Below, in pieces: positions 8,713-50,273 of a stretch of 64,000 nt of DNA. The DNA lies in NCBI GenBank assembly GCA_030584085.1, contig CP129490.1, forward strand, positions 2,885,511 to 2,949,510, given 5' to 3'. A program made the translations under genes and the position numbers. Source of the DNA: Melioribacteraceae bacterium. Its GTDB lineage: Bacteria > Bacteroidota > Ignavibacteria > Ignavibacteriales > Melioribacteraceae. The notes under the pieces are model-generated. The model had not been told where the DNA came from. It searched no databases and saw only the letters and a list, made by a program, of their open reading frames with translations. Every line of letters begins with the position of its first letter. The stretch's first letter is position 1.

Positions 8713-10383
8713 ATGAAGAAACTTTTACTCGTCATTTTATTATTAACAAGTTGTGTAATTGCTCAGATAGAAGATGCAATTAAAGTAAATAACATCTATC
8801 TCCCGTTTAATAATGCAGGTATTTTGGGTGAAGTAAATATTCCACCACTTGGACAAGGTGGGCAATTTGCAGGTAATGTTTTTCTCTTCTCAGGTGGTTT
8901 TTGGCTTTCGGGTTATGCAAACGATGAACTTTTTGCAAACGGTGTAGCCTCTGCATCATTAGTTGAAGATTATCAACCTGGTACTGTTGGAAGCTCTCCG
9001 GATGATCTAAAAAATATAATCTATAGAATATCAGAAAACTCTGAACCTTTCGGCGAAGATTGGATAAAGTGGAAAGACGCTGTTGAACAAGGTGCTTACT
9101 TCTACGATGGTGACGCTGATGGCATATACGAACCTGTAGATAAAAATAGTAATGGAATTTGGGATGCGGACGAAGATCGGCCTGATTTGATTTATGATGA
9201 ATTATACTTTACTGTGTTTAACGATGGAGTTCCTTCAAGTAATAGAAGATGGCACACCGTAAATCCTTTAGGTATTGAGGTAAGACAATCTATTTTTGGG
9301 TCTGCAAGAAATTCTATATTGAATAACACATTTTTTGTGCGCTATTCGATTGTGAATACCGGATTAATAGCAGATACTTTAAAGGATGTAATTTTTACTT
9401 CTTGGCAGGATGCTGATGTTGGTGATTATATCGATGATACGTTTGGAAGTGATTCAACTTTAAGTTCAACATTTATGTATGACTTGGATAACCATGACAA
9501 TGATTATGGGATTCCGCCGGCAGTATACTTTACATTAGTTCAAAGTCCCAAAAACTATACTGGTAATCCGAATGATTACGCGATAAATAAAATGGGATCC
9601 ATTTTAGGTGAAGAACAATTACAATATTATCAAAATGTTGAAGAAAGATCAGCTACGTACTATAGAAAATCTGATCCATTTTCAGGTGACCCGAATTCAG
9701 TACAGGAAGCCAGAAATTATTCACTTGGATTAAACAGATTAGGTGATCCGATTGATCCTTGCGTTTCTAATTTTGGAAGACCTAACGAAATGGCAGTAGT
9801 TAATTGTATGGATTGCGAAGACGTAACAAATCTATTTTGGGTGTCGGGTGATCCGGTTACCAATTGCGGATGGCTTTCTATTGATGAATCGGATATTAGA
9901 TCATCACTGCACTCCAATTTTTTTGAGATGCCGGTTAATGAACCAATCGATATAATTGTCGCATACACAATTGACCAAGGCACAGATGGAATGAACTCGC
10001 TTGATTTGGTTAGAGAAAGAGTTCAGTACATCCACGAAGAATACGAACGTAATTTTTCTACTATTGTTAGTGTTGATGATAAACCTGAAGAAGTCGTAAA
10101 TGAATTTTCACTTTCACAGAATTATCCTAATCCGTTTAATCCAACTACAACAATTCAATATACAATTTCAAATGTAGGGGACGAAAATATTCGTCCCCTA
10201 CGCACACAATTGATTGTGTATAACATTTTGGGACAAGTCGTAAAAACATTAGTTAACGAAGTAAAAGCTCCGGGTAGTTATGAAGTTACTTTCGATGCAT
10301 CACAACTTTCAAGTGGTGTTTATTTTTATAGATTACAAAGCGGTGATTTCATGCAGACTAGAAAGATGATTCATATGAAATAG
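8713..10383 (+). CDS. T9SS-secreted protein of a four-member paralogous array, short form 1
   Basis: 556 residues: a signal peptide ending about residue 18 (CVIAQ), then a conserved module of about 430 residues, then a T9SS type A sorting domain from about residue 465. The module starts with a VNN-Y-PFNN-G motif and continues with FLFSGGF and SGYAN. It contains an Asp/Asn-rich loop starting at residue 132 (DGDADG ... DKNSNG ... DEDRPD) that looks like a calcium-binding thrombospondin-3/EF-type loop. Two cysteines near the end of the module may form disulfides. The function of the module is unknown to me. The sorting domain should route it through the outer membrane to the surface or medium. 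Its DNA contains a 28-base palindrome (10174-10201). The Shine-Dalgarno AGGAG supports the start. Confidence 0.85.
   Translation: MKKLLLVILLLTSCVIAQIEDAIKVNNIYLPFNNAGILGEVNIPPLGQGGQFAGNVFLFSGGFWLSGYANDELFANGVASASLVEDYQPGTVGSSPDDLKNIIYRISENSEPFGEDWIKWKDAVEQGAYFYDGDADGIYEPVDKNSNGIWDADEDRPDLIYDELYFTVFNDGVPSSNRRWHTVNPLGIEVRQSIFGSARNSILNNTFFVRYSIVNTGLIADTLKDVIFTSWQDADVGDYIDDTFGSDSTLSSTFMYDLDNHDNDYGIPPAVYFTLVQSPKNYTGNPNDYAINKMGSILGEEQLQYYQNVEERSATYYRKSDPFSGDPNSVQEARNYSLGLNRLGDPIDPCVSNFGRPNEMAVVNCMDCEDVTNLFWVSGDPVTNCGWLSIDESDIRSSLHSNFFEMPVNEPIDIIVAYTIDQGTDGMNSLDLVRERVQYIHEEYERNFSTIVSVDDKPEEVVNEFSLSQNYPNPFNPTTTIQYTISNVGDENIRPLRTQLIVYNILGQVVKTLVNEVKAPGSYEVTFDASQLSSGVYFYRLQSGDFMQTRKMIHMK
10174..10201. 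repeat. 28-base palindromic repeat inside the sorting-domain coding region (copy 1)
   Basis: GTAGGGGACGAA and TTCGTCCCCTAC are perfectly inverted around a central AATA, with one mismatch to full symmetry. In the protein it encodes VGDENIRPL, an insertion between two beta strands of the T9SS domain. A second copy lies at 14881-14908. Confidence 0.85.
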
Positions 10384-10439
10384 AATGATAACTGGTGCGA
10401 ACGAAGAAAAAATATAATTTTGTAAAATGGAGTAATGCC

Positions 10440-12083
10440 ATGTATAAAATAATTTTGTTTATAATTTTGTCAACAGCATTATACGCTCAAACGGCCAATG
10501 CAATTAACGTAAACAAAGTTTACTTCCCATTTACAAATAACGGGATTTTAGCCGATGCAAATGTACCGCCAATAGGTACTCTGGCTAGATATGATAGCAT
10601 TGGTTTTCTTTTTTCAGGTGGGTTTTTTCTTTCGGGTTATGCCAACAATGAACTTTTTGCAAATGGTATGGCGTCGGCTTCTTTAGTTGAAGATTATCAA
10701 GCCGGTAAAGTCGGGTCTTCTCCTGATGATCCAAAAAATATAATCTATAAAATTACCGACAACTGCGAACCGTTCGGTGATGAGTGGATAATGTGGAAAG
10801 ATGCTGTTGAGCAAGGAGCTTATTTTTACGATGGTGATGGTGACGGTTTATATGATCCTATCGATAAAAATGCAAACGGCATTTGGGATGCGGATGAGGA
10901 TCGTCCCGATTTGATATATGATGAATTATACTTTACAGTATATAATGATGGTGTTGAAGCTGAGAGAAAAAGGTTTAATACTGTAGCACCCCACGGAATT
11001 GAAATCAGACAATCAGTTTTTGCTTCGGGAAGAAACACCTTACTAGAGAACACAGTCTTCGTACGATATTCTATTTTAAATACGGGTTTGGTTACCGACA
11101 CATTAAAAGATGTAATCTTTTCATTCTGGCAAGATCCGGATGTTGGAGATTATACAGATGATATTAGTGGAGTCGATACGGTTTTACAATCTAGTTTCGT
11201 TTACGATGATGATAATTTTGATTATCAATACGGAGTACCACCGGCTGTTTTCTTTACTATTGTTCAAGGGCCAAAAACTTTCACAGGTAATCCGAATGAT
11301 AATGCAATAAATCGAATGGGTCCGGTTCTTGGTGAAATTAATTTACAAGATCATAAAAATGTTGGAATTAGATCTTTCACGTTCTATCAAGGTTCAGATC
11401 CAATTCTAGGTGATGCAAACAGTGCTCAAGATTTAAGAAATTATGCTCTTGGGTTTTTCCGTGACGGTGTTGAGATGAACCCATGTAATTTTGCTCTTGG
11501 TTATTTTAATGAAGTTGATTGTTCTGATGCAAACCCATTGTTTTGGTTATCGGGAGATCCGGTTACAGATTTCGGGTGGATCGGAAATCGTCCAACAAAT
11601 ATCAGAACTCTCTTGCATTCCGGTATGTTTAATCTTCCTAAAAATAATCCAACGGATATAATAGTTGCTTATACAATCGACCGGGGTGGTGACGGTATGG
11701 AATCAATTACCAAAACTCGTGAACGTGTTAGTTATTTATTGGAAGAATACGAACGTAATTTTTCTACAATTTTAAGTGTTGATGATAAACCTGAAGAAGT
11801 TGTAAATGAATTTTCACTTTCGCAGAATTACCCGAACCCGTTTAATCCAAGCACAACGATTAAATTCACGGTGCCTTCAGACGTGAAACGTGAGACGTCA
11901 ATCACTAAACTTGTTGTTTATGACATTCTGGGTAGAGAAATAAAAACTCTAGTTAACGAAGTAAAAGCACCCGGAACTTATGAAGTTACTTTCAATGCAT
12001 CACAGCTCGCGAGCGGGGTTTATTTTTATCGATTACAAAGTGGTTCTTTTATTAAAACAAAAAAAATGGTTCTTCTTCGCTAA
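10440..12083 (+). CDS. T9SS-secreted protein of the array, short form 2
   Basis: 547 residues from the ATG at 10440, which has a GGAG Shine-Dalgarno eight bases upstream and starts a clean signal peptide (MYKIILF...ALYAQ). The longer frame from 10395 would bury that signal. The mature protein repeats the same module as its upstream neighbour: V-Y-PF-N-G-LAD motif, GFLFSGGFFLSG, the Asp-rich DGDGDG ... DKNANG ... DEDRPD loop, and VAYTIDRG near the end. It closes with a type A sorting domain. The sorting domain carries a five-residue surplus encoded by an ACGT-rich repeat (11880-11899). The 56-base gap to the previous gene suggests cotranscription. Confidence 0.85.
   Translation: MYKIILFIILSTALYAQTANAINVNKVYFPFTNNGILADANVPPIGTLARYDSIGFLFSGGFFLSGYANNELFANGMASASLVEDYQAGKVGSSPDDPKNIIYKITDNCEPFGDEWIMWKDAVEQGAYFYDGDGDGLYDPIDKNANGIWDADEDRPDLIYDELYFTVYNDGVEAERKRFNTVAPHGIEIRQSVFASGRNTLLENTVFVRYSILNTGLVTDTLKDVIFSFWQDPDVGDYTDDISGVDTVLQSSFVYDDDNFDYQYGVPPAVFFTIVQGPKTFTGNPNDNAINRMGPVLGEINLQDHKNVGIRSFTFYQGSDPILGDANSAQDLRNYALGFFRDGVEMNPCNFALGYFNEVDCSDANPLFWLSGDPVTDFGWIGNRPTNIRTLLHSGMFNLPKNNPTDIIVAYTIDRGGDGMESITKTRERVSYLLEEYERNFSTILSVDDKPEEVVNEFSLSQNYPNPFNPSTTIKFTVPSDVKRETSITKLVVYDILGREIKTLVNEVKAPGTYEVTFNASQLASGVYFYRLQSGSFIKTKKMVLLR
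11880..11899. repeat. Short ACGT-rich repeat inside the sorting-domain coding region
   Basis: GACGT ... ACGTC form an inverted pair around a third ACGT (GAAACGTGAG core). It encodes part of a DVKRETS insertion at the same loop where the other array members carry the VGDE-IRPL palindrome. Confidence 0.55.
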
Positions 12084-12171
12084 TGTCATCGAGGACAAAT
12101 GTTTATTAGATAATCTGGTACTGATGCGTTAATTATAAGTTTATATATGTATATATCAGCCGGAGGTAAAA

Positions 12172-15090
12172 ATGAAAAGATTTTTACAAATAATTTTATT
12201 GCTTATCCTAACTCTTACAATTTCCGGGCAAGAAGCCGGATTAACTCAATTGAATTTCATTGATTTATCCGATGAAAGTTTTTCACAAATTATACAAGCT
12301 AATTCTCAAACAGATATCTTTACCGAAGTTGACGGAAGAATTAGGATTCGTTCAACAAATGACATCGATGGCGATTGGCAGGAAATTTCTCCGTCAGGTA
12401 TGCCGCAAATCATTCAACAAAGTAATCGTCCGTTCTCAGTTCTAATCAACGATGATGGTTACTATTATCTGGCAATTTCCGGGGGCGGTTTATATTTCTA
12501 CTTGTATAAATCCACCGAGCCTTATACTCTCAGTTTTGTTAACCAAGGTGGTTTCAGATTAGATATCAACAGTGTGAAAATTATTGAAGGACAAAACAAT
12601 GAGTTAATTGTTTTTGCGAGTACCACAAATAACTCACTGATTAAAATTACTTCAACCGACGAGGGTGATAATTGGAGTAATCCGGTTACCTTATATAATT
12701 CTCTTGGTAAAATCGAATTCTTCGATGTGTTCAAATTCATCGATAATTCTCTGACAATTATCATCAACGAAGATACAAATCCTCAACAATATGATATTTA
12801 TACATCTTCAGACTATGGTTCAACTATTAATTTCGACAATTCTCTGAACCTTATTTCAGATAGTATAGAACGCGTAAGAATTATGCAAACGGAGGATGAA
12901 ACTCTTTACTTTGTTTTCAACGTGGTTAAATCATACGTTAATCATGAAAACACAAATGTCGATTATCGTGATATTTATTACATAACAAGTACAGATGCCG
13001 GACAAAATTGGAGCACCACAACACAACTTACAAAATATATGGCGGATGATAAAATTTATGGTTATTCCGTGAACGGCAATCAACCATTGTTGCTTATAAA
13101 TGCCAACAGGTATAAACAAATTTTACCGCACCCACATAATTATTTATTAAATATTGATTTATTCCAAGATGTTGAGCGTCCATTATTTACTTATCTAGAT
13201 ATACCGTATCAAGTTCATTTTAATGAAACTTTCGATATATCCATATTTGCAGTTGATAATAATCCCATAACTTCTTATGAAGTCACCTTTCAAAATATAA
13301 CTCATGAAATGAAAGATGACGGTATCGGAGCTGACTCAATTGCCGGAGACAATATCTACTCCGTACGAATAACAGCAGACTCACCTGCCTACGACGAAAG
13401 CACTGTTAAATCTATTGATATAAATAATGTTTACATGCCCTTTAATAATAGCGGTGTATTAGCAGATGCACATTACACGGGAATAAGAGAACCAATTCTA
13501 TTTAGATTAACAAACTCACTTGGTAATTCATCAGAATTCGATTTTTCACTAACTACAACACCAACCGAATATTATGGTTCATTAGGTAAATTTGAAAAAA
13601 TAGGATTTTTGTTCTCCGGAGGTTTCTATTTAAGCGGTTTTGCAAACGGTCAATTATTCGCTAATGCGGTAGCTTCAGCAGCTTTTATTGAAGACTATCA
13701 AGCAGGTAATGTTAACTCGATTCCAGATGATCCAAAGAATATTATTTATGAAGTTCACGCTGATGCTGCACCATTCGGAATACAATGGCAGAAGTGGAGT
13801 GATGCAGTAGATCAAGGTGCATATTTTTATGATGGCGATGAGAATGGGGTCTATTCCCCTATCGATCACAATGGAAACGGCGTTTGGGATACAAACGAAG
13901 ATAGACCGGACTTACTTTATGACGCAACATATTTCACAGTTTATAATGACGGCAAACCAGATACTACACGAAGATTCCAGGATATGAATCCCTTAGGAAT
14001 AGAAATTAGACAAACGGTTTTCGGTTCCTCCAGAAATACACGTTTGAGTAATACCGTATTTGTCCGTTATTCATTACTCAACACCGGTTTAGTTGCAGAT
14101 ACATTAAGGGATGTGATTTTTTCAAGCTGGCAGGATCCCGACATGGGTGATTACGTTGATGATCGTTTTGGCAGTGATACTACTTTACAATCAACATTTG
14201 TTTATGACCATGATAACGAAGACATGTCGTTCGGAATTCCACCGGCTGTATATTTTACTTTAGTACAAGGTCCGAAAACATACACCGGGAACTCCAACGA
14301 TTATTCACTAAATAGACGTGGTCCTATTCTCGGAGAAGATCAATCACAATTTTATAAAACAGTCGGATTAGGTTCTGCTATTTTCAATGTCAGATATTTC
14401 TGGGGATTTATGGATCCGGCATCCGTTGAAGAAGCAAGAAATTTTGGATTGGGACTTTCAGCAGCGGGTGAAGTGATTGATCCATGTACATTCGAACACA
14501 GCAGATTTATCGGAGGTAATTGTAACGAAGTTAATCCACACTTCTGGGTATCCGGCGATCCTGTATCAAATACAGGCTGGCTCTTTGATAAAGAAGGTGA
14601 TATTAGAAATCTTTTAAATACCGAGAAATTTGACTTGCCGGTAAACGAACCGACAGATATTATTGTTGCATACACAATCGATAGAGGAATTGATGGAATG
14701 AATTCAATTGATTTGGTTAGAGAAAGGGTTCATTATATTCACGAAGAGTATGCAAATAATTTTTCTACAATTGTAGGTGTTGATGATAAACATGAAGAAG
14801 TTGTAAGTGATTTTTCACTATCGCAAAATTACCCAAACCCGTTTAATCCAACTACTACAATTCAATATACAATTCCAAATGTAGGGGACGAATATATTCG
14901 TCCCCTACGTACACAATTGATTGTTTATAACATTTTGGGACAAGTCGTAAAAACATTAGTAAACGAATTAAAAACTCCCGGAACGTATGAAGTTACTTTC
15001 GATGCATCACAACTTGCGAGTGGTGTGTATTTTTATAGATTACAAAGCGGTTCTTTTATGCAAACAAAAAAAATGGTTCTTCTTCGTTAA
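12172..15090 (+). CDS. T9SS-secreted protein of the array, long form with Asp-box propeller (1)
   Basis: 972 residues. A signal peptide ends near residue 19. Residues 20-350 hold several Asp-box/BNR motifs of the S-x-D-x-G-x-x-W kind (for example TSTDEGDNW and TSTDAGQNW), predicting a sialidase-fold beta-propeller. An Ig-like domain follows, with DDGIGADSIAGDNIY near residue 382. The array module then runs to about 875 and a type A sorting domain ends the protein. The start of the module (IDINNVYMPFNNSGVLADA, residues 415-433) lies inside the Ig-like domain, whose last strands (REPILF...LGNSSEF) resume at 439. No sialidase catalytic triad is visible, so enzymatic activity is not claimed. The Shine-Dalgarno GGAGG is good. 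Confidence 0.85.
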   Translation: MKRFLQIILLLILTLTISGQEAGLTQLNFIDLSDESFSQIIQANSQTDIFTEVDGRIRIRSTNDIDGDWQEISPSGMPQIIQQSNRPFSVLINDDGYYYLAISGGGLYFYLYKSTEPYTLSFVNQGGFRLDINSVKIIEGQNNELIVFASTTNNSLIKITSTDEGDNWSNPVTLYNSLGKIEFFDVFKFIDNSLTIIINEDTNPQQYDIYTSSDYGSTINFDNSLNLISDSIERVRIMQTEDETLYFVFNVVKSYVNHENTNVDYRDIYYITSTDAGQNWSTTTQLTKYMADDKIYGYSVNGNQPLLLINANRYKQILPHPHNYLLNIDLFQDVERPLFTYLDIPYQVHFNETFDISIFAVDNNPITSYEVTFQNITHEMKDDGIGADSIAGDNIYSVRITADSPAYDESTVKSIDINNVYMPFNNSGVLADAHYTGIREPILFRLTNSLGNSSEFDFSLTTTPTEYYGSLGKFEKIGFLFSGGFYLSGFANGQLFANAVASAAFIEDYQAGNVNSIPDDPKNIIYEVHADAAPFGIQWQKWSDAVDQGAYFYDGDENGVYSPIDHNGNGVWDTNEDRPDLLYDATYFTVYNDGKPDTTRRFQDMNPLGIEIRQTVFGSSRNTRLSNTVFVRYSLLNTGLVADTLRDVIFSSWQDPDMGDYVDDRFGSDTTLQSTFVYDHDNEDMSFGIPPAVYFTLVQGPKTYTGNSNDYSLNRRGPILGEDQSQFYKTVGLGSAIFNVRYFWGFMDPASVEEARNFGLGLSAAGEVIDPCTFEHSRFIGGNCNEVNPHFWVSGDPVSNTGWLFDKEGDIRNLLNTEKFDLPVNEPTDIIVAYTIDRGIDGMNSIDLVRERVHYIHEEYANNFSTIVGVDDKHEEVVSDFSLSQNYPNPFNPTTTIQYTIPNVGDEYIRPLRTQLIVYNILGQVVKTLVNELKTPGTYEVTFDASQLASGVYFYRLQSGSFMQTKKMVLLR
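14881..14908. repeat. 28-base perfect palindrome inside the sorting-domain coding region (copy 2)
   Basis: GTAGGGGACGAATA is followed directly by its exact reverse complement TATTCGTCCCCTAC. It encodes VGDEYIRPL at the same position of the sorting domain as copy 1. It differs from copy 1 by one base, which restores full symmetry. Confidence 0.9.
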
Positions 15091-15125
15091 TAATTTTTAT
15101 AAATCAATATCAATTGGGGCACGTC

Positions 15126-17990
15126 ATGAAAAGAATACTCTTACTGTTAATTTTTGTAATTAGTTCTGTTCAATTTGCACAATTTGAACAGATTCGGAAT
15201 GTTCATTTGGGAGATGCAACTATTAACGAGCAATCAAAGGTTTCATTTATTGAGAAAGATGATTCGTTGTTTTGTTTCTTCAGACATCTTTCGTCTCTAA
15301 ATGTAATAGTAAGTAATGATAATGGATTGACTTGGAGTGAACCTCAATCTATACAAGGATTGCTTACATCAAATCTCAGGAATTTTGATGTCAGTTTGAC
15401 TCCACAAAATAAAATACTCATTTCAACTGTACGCTTCCCTCAATCGATTATGATGTTTAATTATAATTTTTCCTCTAACTCAAATATAGCTGTGGGCACA
15501 AATACTAGCATAAGCGGTCTTTCAACTTTTGAGAATCTGCAAATTGACGAAAATAATTACTTTGTTTCGGCTCGATCTTCAGACAACACTTTATTTTATA
15601 TAACTAGCAACGACGGCGGTAATACATGGAGTGATAAGTTGTTCTCCCCTTCAATTTCAACAAATGAAAAGGCTCTTCAAATTGCTCAGCATAATAATAA
15701 TGTTTTTGTTGTCTATGAATCCGATGGTTCTATTAAGTCAATATTAACAGACGATCTTGGCGAAAATTGGAGTAATGAAGTCGAAATTTTTACATCCGAT
15801 AATGAAATTGCAAACCCGGTTATTCAAACATTTGACGGCAAGCTTTACATTGCTTTTGAAGAAAAGGAGTATGTAGAGTTAATCGACGATTATCAATCAA
15901 ATGTATATTACATAGTAAGCGAAGACGGTGGTATTACTTGGAGTGATAAAGTACAATTCACTTTTTACATAGGAAATGATCTTATTTCTGAAATAGTAAA
16001 CTCGGGTAATCGATTATTGATCAGCTTGAATATAAACAGACCCGTGTATTCAACTTATTCTCCATATTTCGCCGATCTAATTAATTCTGTTGATACTGCC
16101 CCGCCTGCTATTTACGATTTCATTATCCCCGAAACTGTAAAATATCATAATGAATTAATAGTGCGTGCATTTGTGAATGATAATAATGGAATTGCATCTG
16201 TAAAAGTTAATTATAACGAGGTAGAGTATGAATTATTTGATGACGGTAATCATAATGATTCACTAGCAAATGACAACATATACGGCTCTCTAATCCCGGG
16301 AATAGAAAGACCGCTTGATGTTAATAAGACATTTATTGATGTAAATAATCTAACCACACCTATCGATAACTCCGGAAGAATCGCAGATATAGGAGTTGAA
16401 GTATTGAGAAACGAAATTGAAGTAGTCGCGACAGATATAAATGACAATTCAACTTCAAATCTAAAACTTGTTGAGTATGAAGATTTTGGAAGAGGAATAA
16501 GACTTGATGACATAAGTATAATGTTCGCCGGTGGATTTATGCTATCTGGTTACAGTAACGGAGACTTAATTGCTAACGGAGTGGCTTCGGCAAGTTTAAT
16601 AGAAGATTATCTTCCCGGAAATGTCGGATCTGATCCAAATTATCCGGAGTACAAAATTTATTCAGTCTGGAGAACCGATACTCCGTTCGGACAAAGCTGG
16701 CAAGATTGGAAGACAGCGGTTGATCAAGGTGCATACTTTTATGACGGTGATGATGACGGTGTTTACAATCCGATTGATAAAAACAGCAACGGGCTATGGG
16801 ATGAAGATGAGGACAAACCGGATATTCTTTTTGATGCTACTTATTTTACTGTCTATAATGATGCAGTTCCGAAATCGCAAAAACGATTCAATACCGTTGA
16901 CCCTCAGGGAATTGAAATTAGACAAACTGCTTTTGCCTCTGCAAATAATACTTTGCTTAGCAATACGGTATTCTTCAGATACTCAATTGTAAATACAGGA
17001 ATGATTGCTGATACATTGAAAGATGTTATCTTTTCTCCATGGGTGGATAATGATATTGGTTATAATTATAATGCTGATCTTGTAGCTTGCGATACCTTAT
17101 TACAATCAGCGTTTACCTATAAACCGAATGATTACAACGATCAGAGTTTCGGGACCAACCCGCCGGCGCTATTCACAACAATTTTGCAAGGACCAATTAA
17201 ATATACCGGTGACGAAAATGATATTGCTTTTAATAAACTCGGTCCCGATTTAGGTGTGATTGAATATCCCGGATTTGTGAATGTTGGAATTGAGTCTCAT
17301 GTACATTATCAATCCTCCGATCCATTTTTAGGTGATCCGACTAATGCAAGCGAACAACGAAATTATCATCTTGGAACCACAAAAGATGGAATGGCTCCTG
17401 ATCCATGTAATTGGTATTTGGGTAGTGTAATAAATCAAGAGTGTTCAAATGTGAACCCATATTTATGGTATTCAGGTGACCCCGTTACACAAACCGGTTG
17501 GATTAATAATTATACTACGGATCAGAGACAATTACTTAATACCGGGAAATTTGATTTGGTAAAAGAACAGCCGGTTGATATAATTGTTGCATATACAGCG
17601 GAACGAGGAATGAATTCATTCAATTCAATAGATCTAACAAGAGAAACTGTTCGTTATCTTTTTGAAGAATACGGAAATAATTTTTCAACTTTAGTTGGTG
17701 TGGAAGACCAACAAGATGAAGTTGTAAATGATTTTTCACTATCGCAGAATTTCCCGAACCCGTTTAATCCAACATCAAAAATCAAATATCAAATTGCAAA
17801 ATTGGGTAAGGTTGAATTAAAGGTTTATGACATTCTTGGAAGAGAGATTACTACCCTCGTAAACGAAATAAAAGCACCCGGAACATATGAAGTTACTTTC
17901 AACGCATCACAACTCGCAAGTGGAGTTTATTTTTATCGTTTAACTAGTGGTGATTTTATGCAGACTAAGAAGATGATCCTCCTTCGCTAA
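15126..17990 (+). CDS. T9SS-secreted protein of the array, long form with Asp-box propeller (2)
   Basis: 954 residues from the ATG at 15126 (signal peptide MKRILLLL...QFAQ). An in-frame TTG twelve bases upstream is less likely because GGGG lies in good Shine-Dalgarno position for the ATG. Asp-box motifs (VSNDNGLTW, TSNDGGNTW, LTDDLGENW, VSEDGGITW) give a propeller of about 310 residues, followed by an Ig-like domain and the array module. The VNN-PIDNSG-IAD motif is again nested within the Ig-like domain. The module keeps the Asp-rich loop (DGDDDG ... DKNSNG ... DEDKPD). The C-terminal type A sorting domain lacks the repeat-encoded insertion, so it shows the unexpanded form. The last codons overlap a palindrome at 17977-18003. 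Confidence 0.85.
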   Translation: MKRILLLLIFVISSVQFAQFEQIRNVHLGDATINEQSKVSFIEKDDSLFCFFRHLSSLNVIVSNDNGLTWSEPQSIQGLLTSNLRNFDVSLTPQNKILISTVRFPQSIMMFNYNFSSNSNIAVGTNTSISGLSTFENLQIDENNYFVSARSSDNTLFYITSNDGGNTWSDKLFSPSISTNEKALQIAQHNNNVFVVYESDGSIKSILTDDLGENWSNEVEIFTSDNEIANPVIQTFDGKLYIAFEEKEYVELIDDYQSNVYYIVSEDGGITWSDKVQFTFYIGNDLISEIVNSGNRLLISLNINRPVYSTYSPYFADLINSVDTAPPAIYDFIIPETVKYHNELIVRAFVNDNNGIASVKVNYNEVEYELFDDGNHNDSLANDNIYGSLIPGIERPLDVNKTFIDVNNLTTPIDNSGRIADIGVEVLRNEIEVVATDINDNSTSNLKLVEYEDFGRGIRLDDISIMFAGGFMLSGYSNGDLIANGVASASLIEDYLPGNVGSDPNYPEYKIYSVWRTDTPFGQSWQDWKTAVDQGAYFYDGDDDGVYNPIDKNSNGLWDEDEDKPDILFDATYFTVYNDAVPKSQKRFNTVDPQGIEIRQTAFASANNTLLSNTVFFRYSIVNTGMIADTLKDVIFSPWVDNDIGYNYNADLVACDTLLQSAFTYKPNDYNDQSFGTNPPALFTTILQGPIKYTGDENDIAFNKLGPDLGVIEYPGFVNVGIESHVHYQSSDPFLGDPTNASEQRNYHLGTTKDGMAPDPCNWYLGSVINQECSNVNPYLWYSGDPVTQTGWINNYTTDQRQLLNTGKFDLVKEQPVDIIVAYTAERGMNSFNSIDLTRETVRYLFEEYGNNFSTLVGVEDQQDEVVNDFSLSQNFPNPFNPTSKIKYQIAKLGKVELKVYDILGREITTLVNEIKAPGTYEVTFNASQLASGVYFYRLTSGDFMQTKKMILLR

Positions 17991-18025: not shown

Positions 18026-18105
18026 AAAACCCCGGGATTTGTCCGAAGCAAGTTGGTAAATTGTGACTTCCTTATCACTATCTTGCAGAAAAATCCCGGG
18101 GTTTT
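18026..18105. terminator. Bidirectional terminator-like hairpin with a structured 50-base loop
   Basis: Perfect 15-base arms AAAACCCCGGGATTT (18026-18040) and AAATCCCGGGGTTTT (18091-18105) lie between convergent genes, with T or A tracts on both sides. The loop is unusually long and contains inner pairs GCAAG/CTTGC (18048-18052, 18082-18086) and GTGA/TCAC (18063-18066, 18075-18078). Confidence 0.7.
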
Positions 18106-48179: not shown

Positions 48180-50273
48180 ATGAAAAAAATATACTTCCTA
48201 TCATCCTTACTCATCTTATTCACAACCCAAACTGTATATACTCAATCCGATTTTAATATAAAAATTCAGCAAATTGAAAATCCCTACTATAGCTCAGAGA
48301 ATTATCTTGAGGGGTTAATAATAGTTGAATACACACCAGGTAATAGTGGGGCATACCTTAGTCTTGGAGCTGAATGGAGTGATTTTTCAGGTCCATTCGA
48401 TATCATTCTCGAAAATCTTTACTTACCAAGTGAAAGTGAAGTTGACACAAACAGATATACTCTTACAGCCTCTTACAATCTTTATGATTTGGGTGTGACT
48501 GAAGAGATGATAAAACAAATGAATTCTTCTCAATCATCAATAGAGTTTATAGTTTACATTCATTGTTTAAGTACTATCGGATTTTATCCATTCGCACCGC
48601 ATACCTTCCAAGGACAATTACTTGTATTACTGACACTATCCTACTATGATGCTGTTGGCGCATTATTTTTATTTGACTTAGCGACAAAATTGGCATCAGT
48701 CCAACCGGTTACGCAACCACCGGAGGATCCGAAAACAGATTTCTTATTAAGGACAAAAGTTTATAATCTAGACCTCGATAACGAAACAAATCCAGGATCA
48801 CCAACTGGTTATGCCGGTGATTTGAATGCATGTGTGCCCACAGCAACAGCAAATAGCATGCAGTGGTTAGAAGACCAAAAGAAAATTGAATTTAAAGGTG
48901 ATGCCGAATACTTAAAAAATAGTCCTGGTAATAAACTTGCAACATTGAGTAAGAACATGAATCGAGAGCATCAGAAAGGTGTTAGACCTGAACCAATGAT
49001 CAAAGGCAAACTTGATTTTATTGAGGAAACGAAGATCCCACTCTCTGTAAAATTTCAAACAAAATATTTGGATACAAATGTCACAAGCAGTAATGGAAAT
49101 GCAACCGCACAAAATTTCAACAGACCGGATAAGCCTTGGCCGGATTGGAATTTCATAAAACAAATGCTGAAAGATGGTGAGGATGTTGAAATGAATTATC
49201 ATTGGCAAGATGCCGATAGCAATTGGCATGCTCATTCTGTAAACGTTATTGGATTTGAGGAATATCAGAGCGGTAAAAAAACTATAACATTTTCACATGA
49301 TCGAATCCAAAGTAGAAAAAATGGAAAGAATGGAGAGGATGATTGGGGTACATTCCGTGAGACTCATGAAATTTCCATTGATGATGAAGGTGCGATGAGG
49401 TTTGGTCACAATAATTCCAGAAGAATTTTTTTAGCTGCTGCTGAAAGTCCACGTCCGAGTGAAGGCGAAGCAACGGCTGCTTTCTTAAATGAATTCTTTG
49501 CGTTAGATGGTAATTTGATAAAAAATAAATCAAACCAAATTACTGCTGATAACGAATTTATTGAAATTGGACTTGGTCCGAATATTCAAGAATTAGAACT
49601 ATACACTATTTTATTCTATGACGGTTCAGATGGAACAGTTTATTCTGAGATAAGCTTAGGTGAGTTTGATGTGGCATCTGTTGAAGATAGCATACAGTTG
49701 TACCTCTATACTTTTAATGAAGATCATTTTTTAAGTCAAAGTGGAGGAATAGCTATAAACTATAGCGGTACTTTAATACCCGGACAATTTTTCAGCTATG
49801 GTGGTGAATTTACTGCTACGGAAGGTTCTGCTATGAGTTTAGCAAGTAATGACTTGGGTGAATTAACTGAAGGTCAATCAATCGGTTTGCAAGGTTCTGG
49901 AACAAATTATACTCATTTTACTTATGGTTATTCATCCAATCCTTCCCCAGGGGAGTTAAACGATGGACAAATTATAACTAACCTTGATGTTAATGATGAT
50001 TTACTTCCGATAAAGTTTGAATTGAGCAACAATTATCCAAATCCATTTAATCCAACAACAACAATTGAGTTTCAAATCCCAATACGAACGCAAGTAAAAT
50101 TAACTATATATGACATTCTGGGTAGAGAAGTATCCAAGCTAGTAGATAGTGAACTCTCCGCCGGAAAATATGATTTCATATTTGATGCTGCTAATCTACC
50201 AAGCGGTTTATATTTATATCGTCTATCGGCAGAGGGATTTACACAGGCAAAGAAACTTTTATTGTTGAAATAA
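48180..50273 (+). CDS. T9SS-secreted protein with C39/papain-like peptidase domain
   Basis: 697 residues. A signal peptide (about 1-20) is followed by a beta-rich region to about 195. A C39-like cysteine peptidase domain has Cys218 in GDLNACVPTA, His352 in HAHSVNVIG and Asp374 in SHD as likely catalytic residues. A further beta region precedes a type A sorting domain (from about 610, LSNNYPNPFNPTT ... DILGREV). It should be exported to the outer surface. The array proteins at 8.7-18 kb share only the sorting domain. The sorting domain has the unexpanded seven-residue loop. Shine-Dalgarno GGAGG fixes the start. Confidence 0.82.
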   Translation: MKKIYFLSSLLILFTTQTVYTQSDFNIKIQQIENPYYSSENYLEGLIIVEYTPGNSGAYLSLGAEWSDFSGPFDIILENLYLPSESEVDTNRYTLTASYNLYDLGVTEEMIKQMNSSQSSIEFIVYIHCLSTIGFYPFAPHTFQGQLLVLLTLSYYDAVGALFLFDLATKLASVQPVTQPPEDPKTDFLLRTKVYNLDLDNETNPGSPTGYAGDLNACVPTATANSMQWLEDQKKIEFKGDAEYLKNSPGNKLATLSKNMNREHQKGVRPEPMIKGKLDFIEETKIPLSVKFQTKYLDTNVTSSNGNATAQNFNRPDKPWPDWNFIKQMLKDGEDVEMNYHWQDADSNWHAHSVNVIGFEEYQSGKKTITFSHDRIQSRKNGKNGEDDWGTFRETHEISIDDEGAMRFGHNNSRRIFLAAAESPRPSEGEATAAFLNEFFALDGNLIKNKSNQITADNEFIEIGLGPNIQELELYTILFYDGSDGTVYSEISLGEFDVASVEDSIQLYLYTFNEDHFLSQSGGIAINYSGTLIPGQFFSYGGEFTATEGSAMSLASNDLGELTEGQSIGLQGSGTNYTHFTYGYSSNPSPGELNDGQIITNLDVNDDLLPIKFELSNNYPNPFNPTTTIEFQIPIRTQVKLTIYDILGREVSKLVDSELSAGKYDFIFDAANLPSGLYLYRLSAEGFTQAKKLLLLK

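Follow-up and report, generated by a model that had tools for sequence, protein, structure and literature searches.

Results

Palindromic loops in a tandem cluster of T9SS cargo genes

The window, that is, the whole stretch of 64,000 nt that was analysed, contains a tandem cluster of four paralogous genes encoding T9SS cargo proteins and, further downstream, another ORF with a sorting domain. The features considered here are the following.

8713..10383, + strand: gene 1 of the tandem paralogue cluster, T9SS cargo, 556 aa
10123..10380, + strand: T9SS type A sorting domain of gene 1, with palindromic loop
10174..10201, no strand: palindrome A copy 1, one base off perfect, GTAGGGGACGAAAATATTCGTCCCCTAC, encoding VGDENIRPL
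10395..12083, + strand: gene 2 of the cluster, T9SS cargo, 562 aa
11829..12080, + strand: sorting domain of gene 2, long loop with a non-palindromic KRET cassette at 11880-11903
12172..15090, + strand: gene 3 of the cluster, T9SS cargo, 972 aa
14830..15087, + strand: T9SS type A sorting domain of gene 3, with palindromic loop
14881..14908, no strand: palindrome A copy 2, perfect, GTAGGGGACGAATATATTCGTCCCCTAC, encoding VGDEYIRPL, predicted turn between two strands
15114..17990, + strand: gene 4 of the cluster, T9SS cargo, 958 aa
17751..17987, + strand: sorting domain of gene 4, short loop without palindrome
50034..50270, + strand: sorting domain of ORF 48180-50273, short loop without palindrome

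Both palindrome-bearing genes end in a T9SS type A sorting domain: the C-terminal matches to TIGR04183 scored 42.0 bits (gene with the 14881 copy) and 45.1 bits (gene with the 10174 copy) against a cut-off of 23, and the Pfam domain PF18962 also scored above its cut-off in both. The original prediction had placed two 28-base palindromes in frame at the same turn of these two domains, and this was confirmed: the in-frame translations are VGDEYIRPL and VGDENIRPL, the sequence at 14881-14908 is a perfect palindrome, and that at 10174-10201 has one base changed. The prediction that domains lacking the palindrome have a shorter loop held as well, as the short-loop domains of the ORFs ending at 17990 and 50273 are seven residues shorter here. 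A third long-loop domain of the window, in the gene at 10395-12083 and overlooked in the original prediction, has a non-palindromic loop (SDVKRETSITK) that is two residues shorter than the palindromic loops.

The 14881 domain was modelled with AlphaFold2 (mean pLDDT 75). The palindrome-encoded residues V32-L40 are predicted to form the turn between strands 22-29 and 40-48, the second of which begins with L40; local confidence is lower here, at about 65 across residues 31-40. The best Foldseek match to this model was the sorting domain of Tannerella mirolase, with a weak E-value of 3.0e-03. When the loops were re-drawn with synonymous codons, none of 1000 re-draws reached the observed inverted-repeat score, which was 14 for the 14881 loop (null maximum 8) and 12 for the 10174 loop (null maximum 9).

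The identity between gene 1 and gene 3, measured in 100-nt windows, was 79-96% over the last 430 nt and 50-75% further upstream, and their sorting domains paired with 100/99 support in a tree made without the loops. Gene 2 has a homogenised tail in common with gene 3 and a different loop. Separate insertions of the two window copies, as the original prediction had suggested, were not supported, because the genes at 8713-10383 and 12172-15090 are tandem paralogues with homogenised tails; copying between genes by duplication or gene conversion, which had been offered as the plain alternative, suffices. Given the homogenised tails and a loop that gene 2 does not have in common, the two copies are most simply one cassette that arose in one event and was then duplicated or converted within the tandem cluster.

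Several palindromes occupy the same turn throughout the genome

The genome is a single contig of 3.74 Mb with 127 matches to PF18962, all of which were read; 125 of them have the second motif that defines the loop. Thirty-three of these loops are long and 92 are short. An inverted-repeat score of at least 9 was found in 21 of the 33 long loops (one more scored 8), in 0 of the 92 short loops and in 0 of 125 downstream control stretches, so that 21 of the 125 domains carry a strong palindrome at the turn. Identical sorting domains, with the same score and frame length, lie near both contig ends (6419-6655 and 3737835-3738071), perhaps because the contig represents a circular chromosome and its ends overlap.

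The palindromes at this turn are of at least four types that differ in their arms: A (GTAGGGGACGAATATATTCGTCCCCTAC) in nine domains, intact or nearly so, B (GTAGGGACAAGTCGCGACTTGTCCCTAC) in five, C (GTAGGGACAACTCATGAGTTGTCCCTAC) in six and D (GTAGTGGACGCAAAATTTGCGTCCACTAC) in one, in addition to a decayed palindrome E in one domain. Synonymous re-draws reached the observed score in 0/1000 cases for each of two A domains, one B domain, one C domain and the E domain, and in 12/1000 cases for D. Six domains have the non-palindromic KRET loop, and one of these gave 783/1000. The possibility that the KRET loop is a hidden palindrome was rejected, the six KRET loops scoring only 4-5 as inverted repeats; a search with the 24-base KRET sequence, allowing up to three mismatches, gave five matches, four at KRET-loop sorting domains and one elsewhere.

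The pattern GTAGGGG..CCCCTAC occurs at exactly five places genome-wide, all of them in sorting domains and at the same offset, and all 10 places in this genome that match palindrome A with up to two mismatches are at sorting domains, one of which is broken. The prediction that the inverted symmetry is nearly kept although the protein does not require it stood in one part only: the symmetry exceeds codon chance, as the re-draws indicate, but it is not maintained, since six of the nine A-type domains have changes in the palindrome, all one-sided and none paired.

Sister palindromes lie outside the sorting domains

A looser pattern, GTAGNG..CNCTAC with a permitted span of 24-38 nt, matched 39 places in the genome, and the pattern read backwards matched 22. 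The matches are 28-29 nt long in 36 of the 39 cases. Sorting-domain loops account for 14 of the places, and a further 22, located elsewhere, are palindromes or near-palindromes; the other three are non-palindromic. The sequence between the fixed ends was left free in this search, and 263 of 308 inner pairs at the 39 places were complementary; the free base at position 5 paired with its partner in 38 of 39, with G-C, A-T, T-A and C-G all used. This complementarity with varied pair types indicates that the arms covary as in a family of palindromic repeats.

Twenty of the 22 outside palindromes are located 2-26 nt after the stop codon of a frame of at least 100 aa, one is at 65 nt, and one follows no such frame. 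Eight lie 6-65 nt 3' of the stop codons of sorting-domain genes, which is above a binomial expectation that assumes about 3300 genes, with fewer than eight events because of paralogous neighbours. None of the 22 is in an evident gene. Some lie within stop-to-stop frames of 63, 71, 75, 94 and 167 aa, in the last of which the palindrome is upstream of the first methionine, and another overlaps the edge of a 153-aa frame. In G061, a genome labelled as the same species, palindrome C is found in frame (VGTTHELSLK) at L339:1510-1535 (contig C23), in a Type ISP restriction-modification specificity domain (PF18135); the same protein also contains TPPSRRGAEGGE, which looks like another repeat-derived insert.

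Palindromes of types B, C and D-like occur outside the sorting domains of this genome. No clear extragenic copy of palindrome A was found in it; a 27-base variant lies 65 nt after a sorting-domain gene. When gaps and other sorting domains were searched, A itself therefore proved confined to sorting domains bar this variant, but its sister palindromes are present in gaps, and the refutation test attached to the original prediction thus gave a mixed outcome. The palindromes fall within the 20-40 bp of GTAG-type REPs and carry the GTAG tag, and the set as a whole has the dispersed extragenic copies, often after stop codons, that are typical of them; palindrome A taken alone does not. The copy number is not high in this genome, with 36 palindromes or near-palindromes of all types. 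C-type copies number up to 28 in the relative G060.

Loops are exchanged between genes and genomes

We compared 21 domains of G061 with those of this genome; one had no match, and four with matches below 92% identity were not counted as pairs. Of 12 palindromic pairs with at least 92% identity, two showed a palindrome swap, orthology having been verified through the flanks for these two swapped pairs only. The gene at 3591440 has palindrome C here and palindrome A in its G061 counterpart, and the differences fall within a 41-nt tract that starts 4 nt 5' of the palindrome, with 150/150 nt identical in the left flank and 147/150 in the right. The second pair, at 155317, has B here and a near-perfect A in G061; the DNA 3' of the gene is identical, and the mosaic tract is longer, extending at least 34 nt upstream of the palindrome. 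These pairs show that loops have been exchanged as cassettes between two genomes of one species.

On a loop-free tree of 28 long-loop domains, the four main loop types require 14 changes, where the minimum is 3 and the mean of shuffled types is 14.4. Well-supported branches of this tree force at least three changes for A, two for B, two for C and three for KRET. The type of palindrome is thus unrelated to the phylogeny of the sorting domains. A clean empty site for the 28-nt units was not found, as no compared pair represents the same gene with and without the palindrome. The region 49218-53664 of contig C3 in G061, compared with 3589452-3591440 here, has one extra T9SS gene between two sorting domains, as if it had been lost or gained through recombination between these domains.

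Palindromic loops and nested inserts in relatives

Another 26 genomes yielded 125 further domains, 107 of them with long loops. In the table of loops from this genome and its relatives, 119 of the 127 domains of this genome were recovered by motif, and 2 of 244 rows without the second motif were excluded. A score of at least 9 was reached by 47/107 long loops of the relatives and by 0/107 control stretches; the former number is biased upwards and is not a frequency, because most of the domains were retrieved as best matches to a profile built on 13 long-loop domains, of which 12 are strongly palindromic and the other is decayed, and because 6/107 came from loci fetched by the palindrome pattern, without which the number is 43/101. 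The remaining 60/107 were not strongly palindromic, suggesting that long loops also arise by other means. The palindromes at the turn differ from genome to genome. GTAG is present in 56 of 68 palindromic loops of this genome and its relatives, and GTA is a codon in 56/56, that is, in a single frame. A phylum-wide search gave 12 further loci, three of them (L340, L342, L345) shown as beyond the class; a palindromic loop was found in 0/12, and few had long loops.

In one relative, G041, a variant of palindrome A (A') is split centrally by a palindromic insert of net 21 nt, giving VGDEN-LPAGRQGV-RPL with the frame kept, and a sister domain 2.3 kb away has A' unsplit and is otherwise identical at 252/267 nt. 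In another domain of G041, palindrome B is split by exactly 18 nt (VGTS-PTTVGK-RDLSL), again with the frame kept. No other copies of these nested inserts were found among the loci searched. Sorting-domain loops at L204, L210, L261, L229 and L302 contain other repeat-like inserts (TSPLSKGGMQGG, PPRPSPYQGEGE, LSRGVSEGRGV and VTLSPHHLVTLSP) that are not of the GTAG type.

A RAYT-like gene is associated with related palindromes

Searching 39 genomes, we found palindrome A in five, this one included, and one copy is read in frame within a transposase, where it directly follows the HUH motif. The genome has one RAYT-like gene, at about 3223754-3224356. According to the accessible text of PMC6006769 (BMC Genomics 2018), double-foot GTAG REPs go with RAYT (TnpA-REP) subclass 2.4, equivalent to RAYT group 4, whose proteins have the motifs NH[IFV]H, then WQ and a YIxNNP-like motif and a mean length of about 190 aa, and whose genes are flanked by REPs and also contain them in frame between HuH and Y. 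The protein encoded here agrees with this subclass in motifs (NHIH, WQ and YIEQNP, the last one position off the published consensus) and length (stop-to-stop frame of 200 aa). Its gene is adjoined by GTAGGGGTCGAATATTTTCGACCCC and by a D-type palindrome and holds palindromes in frame, so that REPs are found both flanking it and between HuH and Y, the latter in decayed form. The 22-base core of GTAGGGGTCGAATATTTTCGACCCC matches palindrome A at 19/22 positions, and two of the three differences are the halves of one pair. The sole NCBIfam match of the RAYT-like proteins was NF047646 (REP_Tyr_transpos), with 49.6, 50.2 and 58.3 bits, below the cut-off of 80.

An inverted repeat scoring at least 10 is present in frame before the tyrosine part in 16 of 26 named transposase loci, including L150, L152 and L153, in which the frame has no HUH motif. 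In 16/28 transposases of relatives (30 loci, 28 with a readable motif), a palindromic loop follows the HUH motif, versus 0/28 upstream controls. A 10-mer common to the transposase loop and the sorting-domain loops was found within 3/6 genomes and in 8/96 comparisons between genomes; these comparisons are not independent, and this genome is among the three without sharing.

Another transposase of this genome, at L099, which we take to be RAYT-like from its motif YHVYNRG, was rejected as the source, as a different family of palindromes (CCCGGGATTTT) surrounds it. The 3.3 kb loci of the other four PF01797 genes of this genome contained no GTAG..CTAC palindrome, bar one non-palindromic match. Within the window, an inverted repeat at 18026-18105 (AAAACCCCGGGATTT.../...AAATCCCGGGGTTTT) resembles the palindromes near the L099 Y1 transposase gene and may belong to a second REP family that has a transposase of its own. 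Two Clostridia loci encode transposases of the same kind as the RAYT-like protein of this genome and contain SVGATLRGRP in frame; L154 has two copies and L155 one, and similar stretches are adjacent.

Discussion

Different REP-like palindromes are present in frame at one turn of the T9SS sorting domains, they have sisters outside genes, they are exchanged between genes, and a RAYT-like gene with related palindromes lies in the same genome. The reading that we favour, with a probability of about 0.8, is that the palindromes are mobile double-foot REPs of the GTAG type, such as those associated with RAYT subclass 2.4 transposases, that settled in the sorting-domain turn by founding RAYT transposition and were then subject to cassette exchange and one-sided decay. 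A REP copy in the turn between two strands of the domain would add a loop peptide of 9-10 residues, and the gene would not be broken because the arms are stop-free in one frame. We infer that the founding copies arrived by RAYT-promoted transposition. The loop would then spread and swap as a cassette, presumably through short-tract homologous recombination among more than 100 sorting domains. The inverted symmetry would point to recent arrival rather than to selection acting on the host gene, and would decay by one-sided mutation. The repeat appears to have found a tolerated home within the export signal; the claim made at the outset, that repeat DNA sits in a secretion signal and is tolerated there, gains support from the four or more arm types at one turn, the extragenic sisters and the in-frame inserts of G041.

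Ordinary inheritance of protein sequence, under which the domain has long existed in a long-loop version whose codons happen to form palindromes, would fit the non-palindromic KRET-type long loop here and the similar loops in relatives, and the single reading frame of all 56 GTAG palindromic loops is what common descent would give. It is nevertheless very improbable in view of the re-draws, which never reached the scores of the A, B, C and E loops re-drawn and seldom that of D, and of the variety of arms found at a single position, the occurrence of identical or sister palindromes outside genes and the lack of a tie between palindrome type and domain ancestry. Gene conversion alone, starting from one ancient insertion with arm-to-arm correction by template switching making the different palindromes, can draw on the cassette swaps directly seen, on the homogenised tails of the window cluster and on the near confinement of palindrome A to sorting domains in this genome. 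That B, C and D-like types lie outside sorting domains of the same genome, that the nested inserts of G041 show new repeats entering the loop, and that relatives differ in their palindromes all speak against it, and we regard it as unlikely.

Selection for a host function, for instance as a hairpin in the mRNA or as a site of protein binding in T9SS genes, would account for the excess of outside palindromes shortly after the stop codons of sorting-domain genes. The majority of sorting domains have no palindrome, though, including paralogues in the same cluster, and the one-sided changes in A-type copies are not what maintenance by selection would leave; this explanation has hardly any probability in our judgement. 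A more elaborate possibility, on which we put small though not negligible weight, is that the loop constitutes a coding niche for a selfish repeat, into which REPs with stop-free arms would be sorted and where hairpin breaks would be repaired from other sorting domains, resulting in homing-like shuffling genome-wide.

The settling of mobile REPs in the sorting-domain turn would have both precedents and differences in known systems. Rickettsia palindromic elements (RPEs) are palindromic repeats whose presence in protein genes extends the encoded product by an in-frame peptide; they are dispersed over many unrelated genes, and RPE-1 is longer. Unlike them, the units described here are 28-29 nt long, have a candidate transposase and cluster in a single domain family; the spread of in-frame insertions over many unrelated genes that marks RPEs was not seen, with 0/22 outside palindromes in an evident gene and a single unrelated gene in G061. 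The palindromes resemble the double-foot type of PMC6006769 in that GTAG is paired with CTAC, and differ from its systems, as far as the accessible text describes them without mention of T9SS or sorting domains, in that the main coding host is one loop of a 100-copy secretion domain whose loops are exchanged between genes. In the portions available of PMC3733652 (Di Nocera and colleagues 2013), GTAG and CGTC REPs located within genes are described as perhaps tolerated in loops or linkers of varied unrelated proteins, at mostly different sites with the exception of recB in two Xanthomonas species, and REP copies as mostly extragenic and often directly 3' of stop codons. The palindromes of this genome are alike in having copies in coding sequence and others that are extragenic and post-stop, and differ in recurring at one structural position in many paralogues; moreover, that definition leaves GTAG unpaired at one end, whereas here it is paired with CTAC. 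In-frame REPs, also within the transposase, are therefore known already (PMC6006769, PMC3733652, from the text available of both). Searches of the open-access literature listed no paper that joins REPs or such palindromes with sorting domains, T9SS or Ignavibacteria, and the available text of PMC10634447 uses "palindromic" for CRISPR only. Repeated settlement in a single loop of a secretion signal present in 100 copies, combined with swapping, was absent from all papers that the search covered.

One structural position, present more than 100 times per genome, has taken up several kinds of palindromic repeat with the reading frame intact. It offers a natural experiment in the conversion of repeat DNA into protein sequence, in a secretion signal that tolerates foreign loops, and on the minimum recombination tract in the wild, with a minimum of 41 nt in one pair. 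It also provides a ready set of substrates for testing the activities of double-foot REPs and their transposases.
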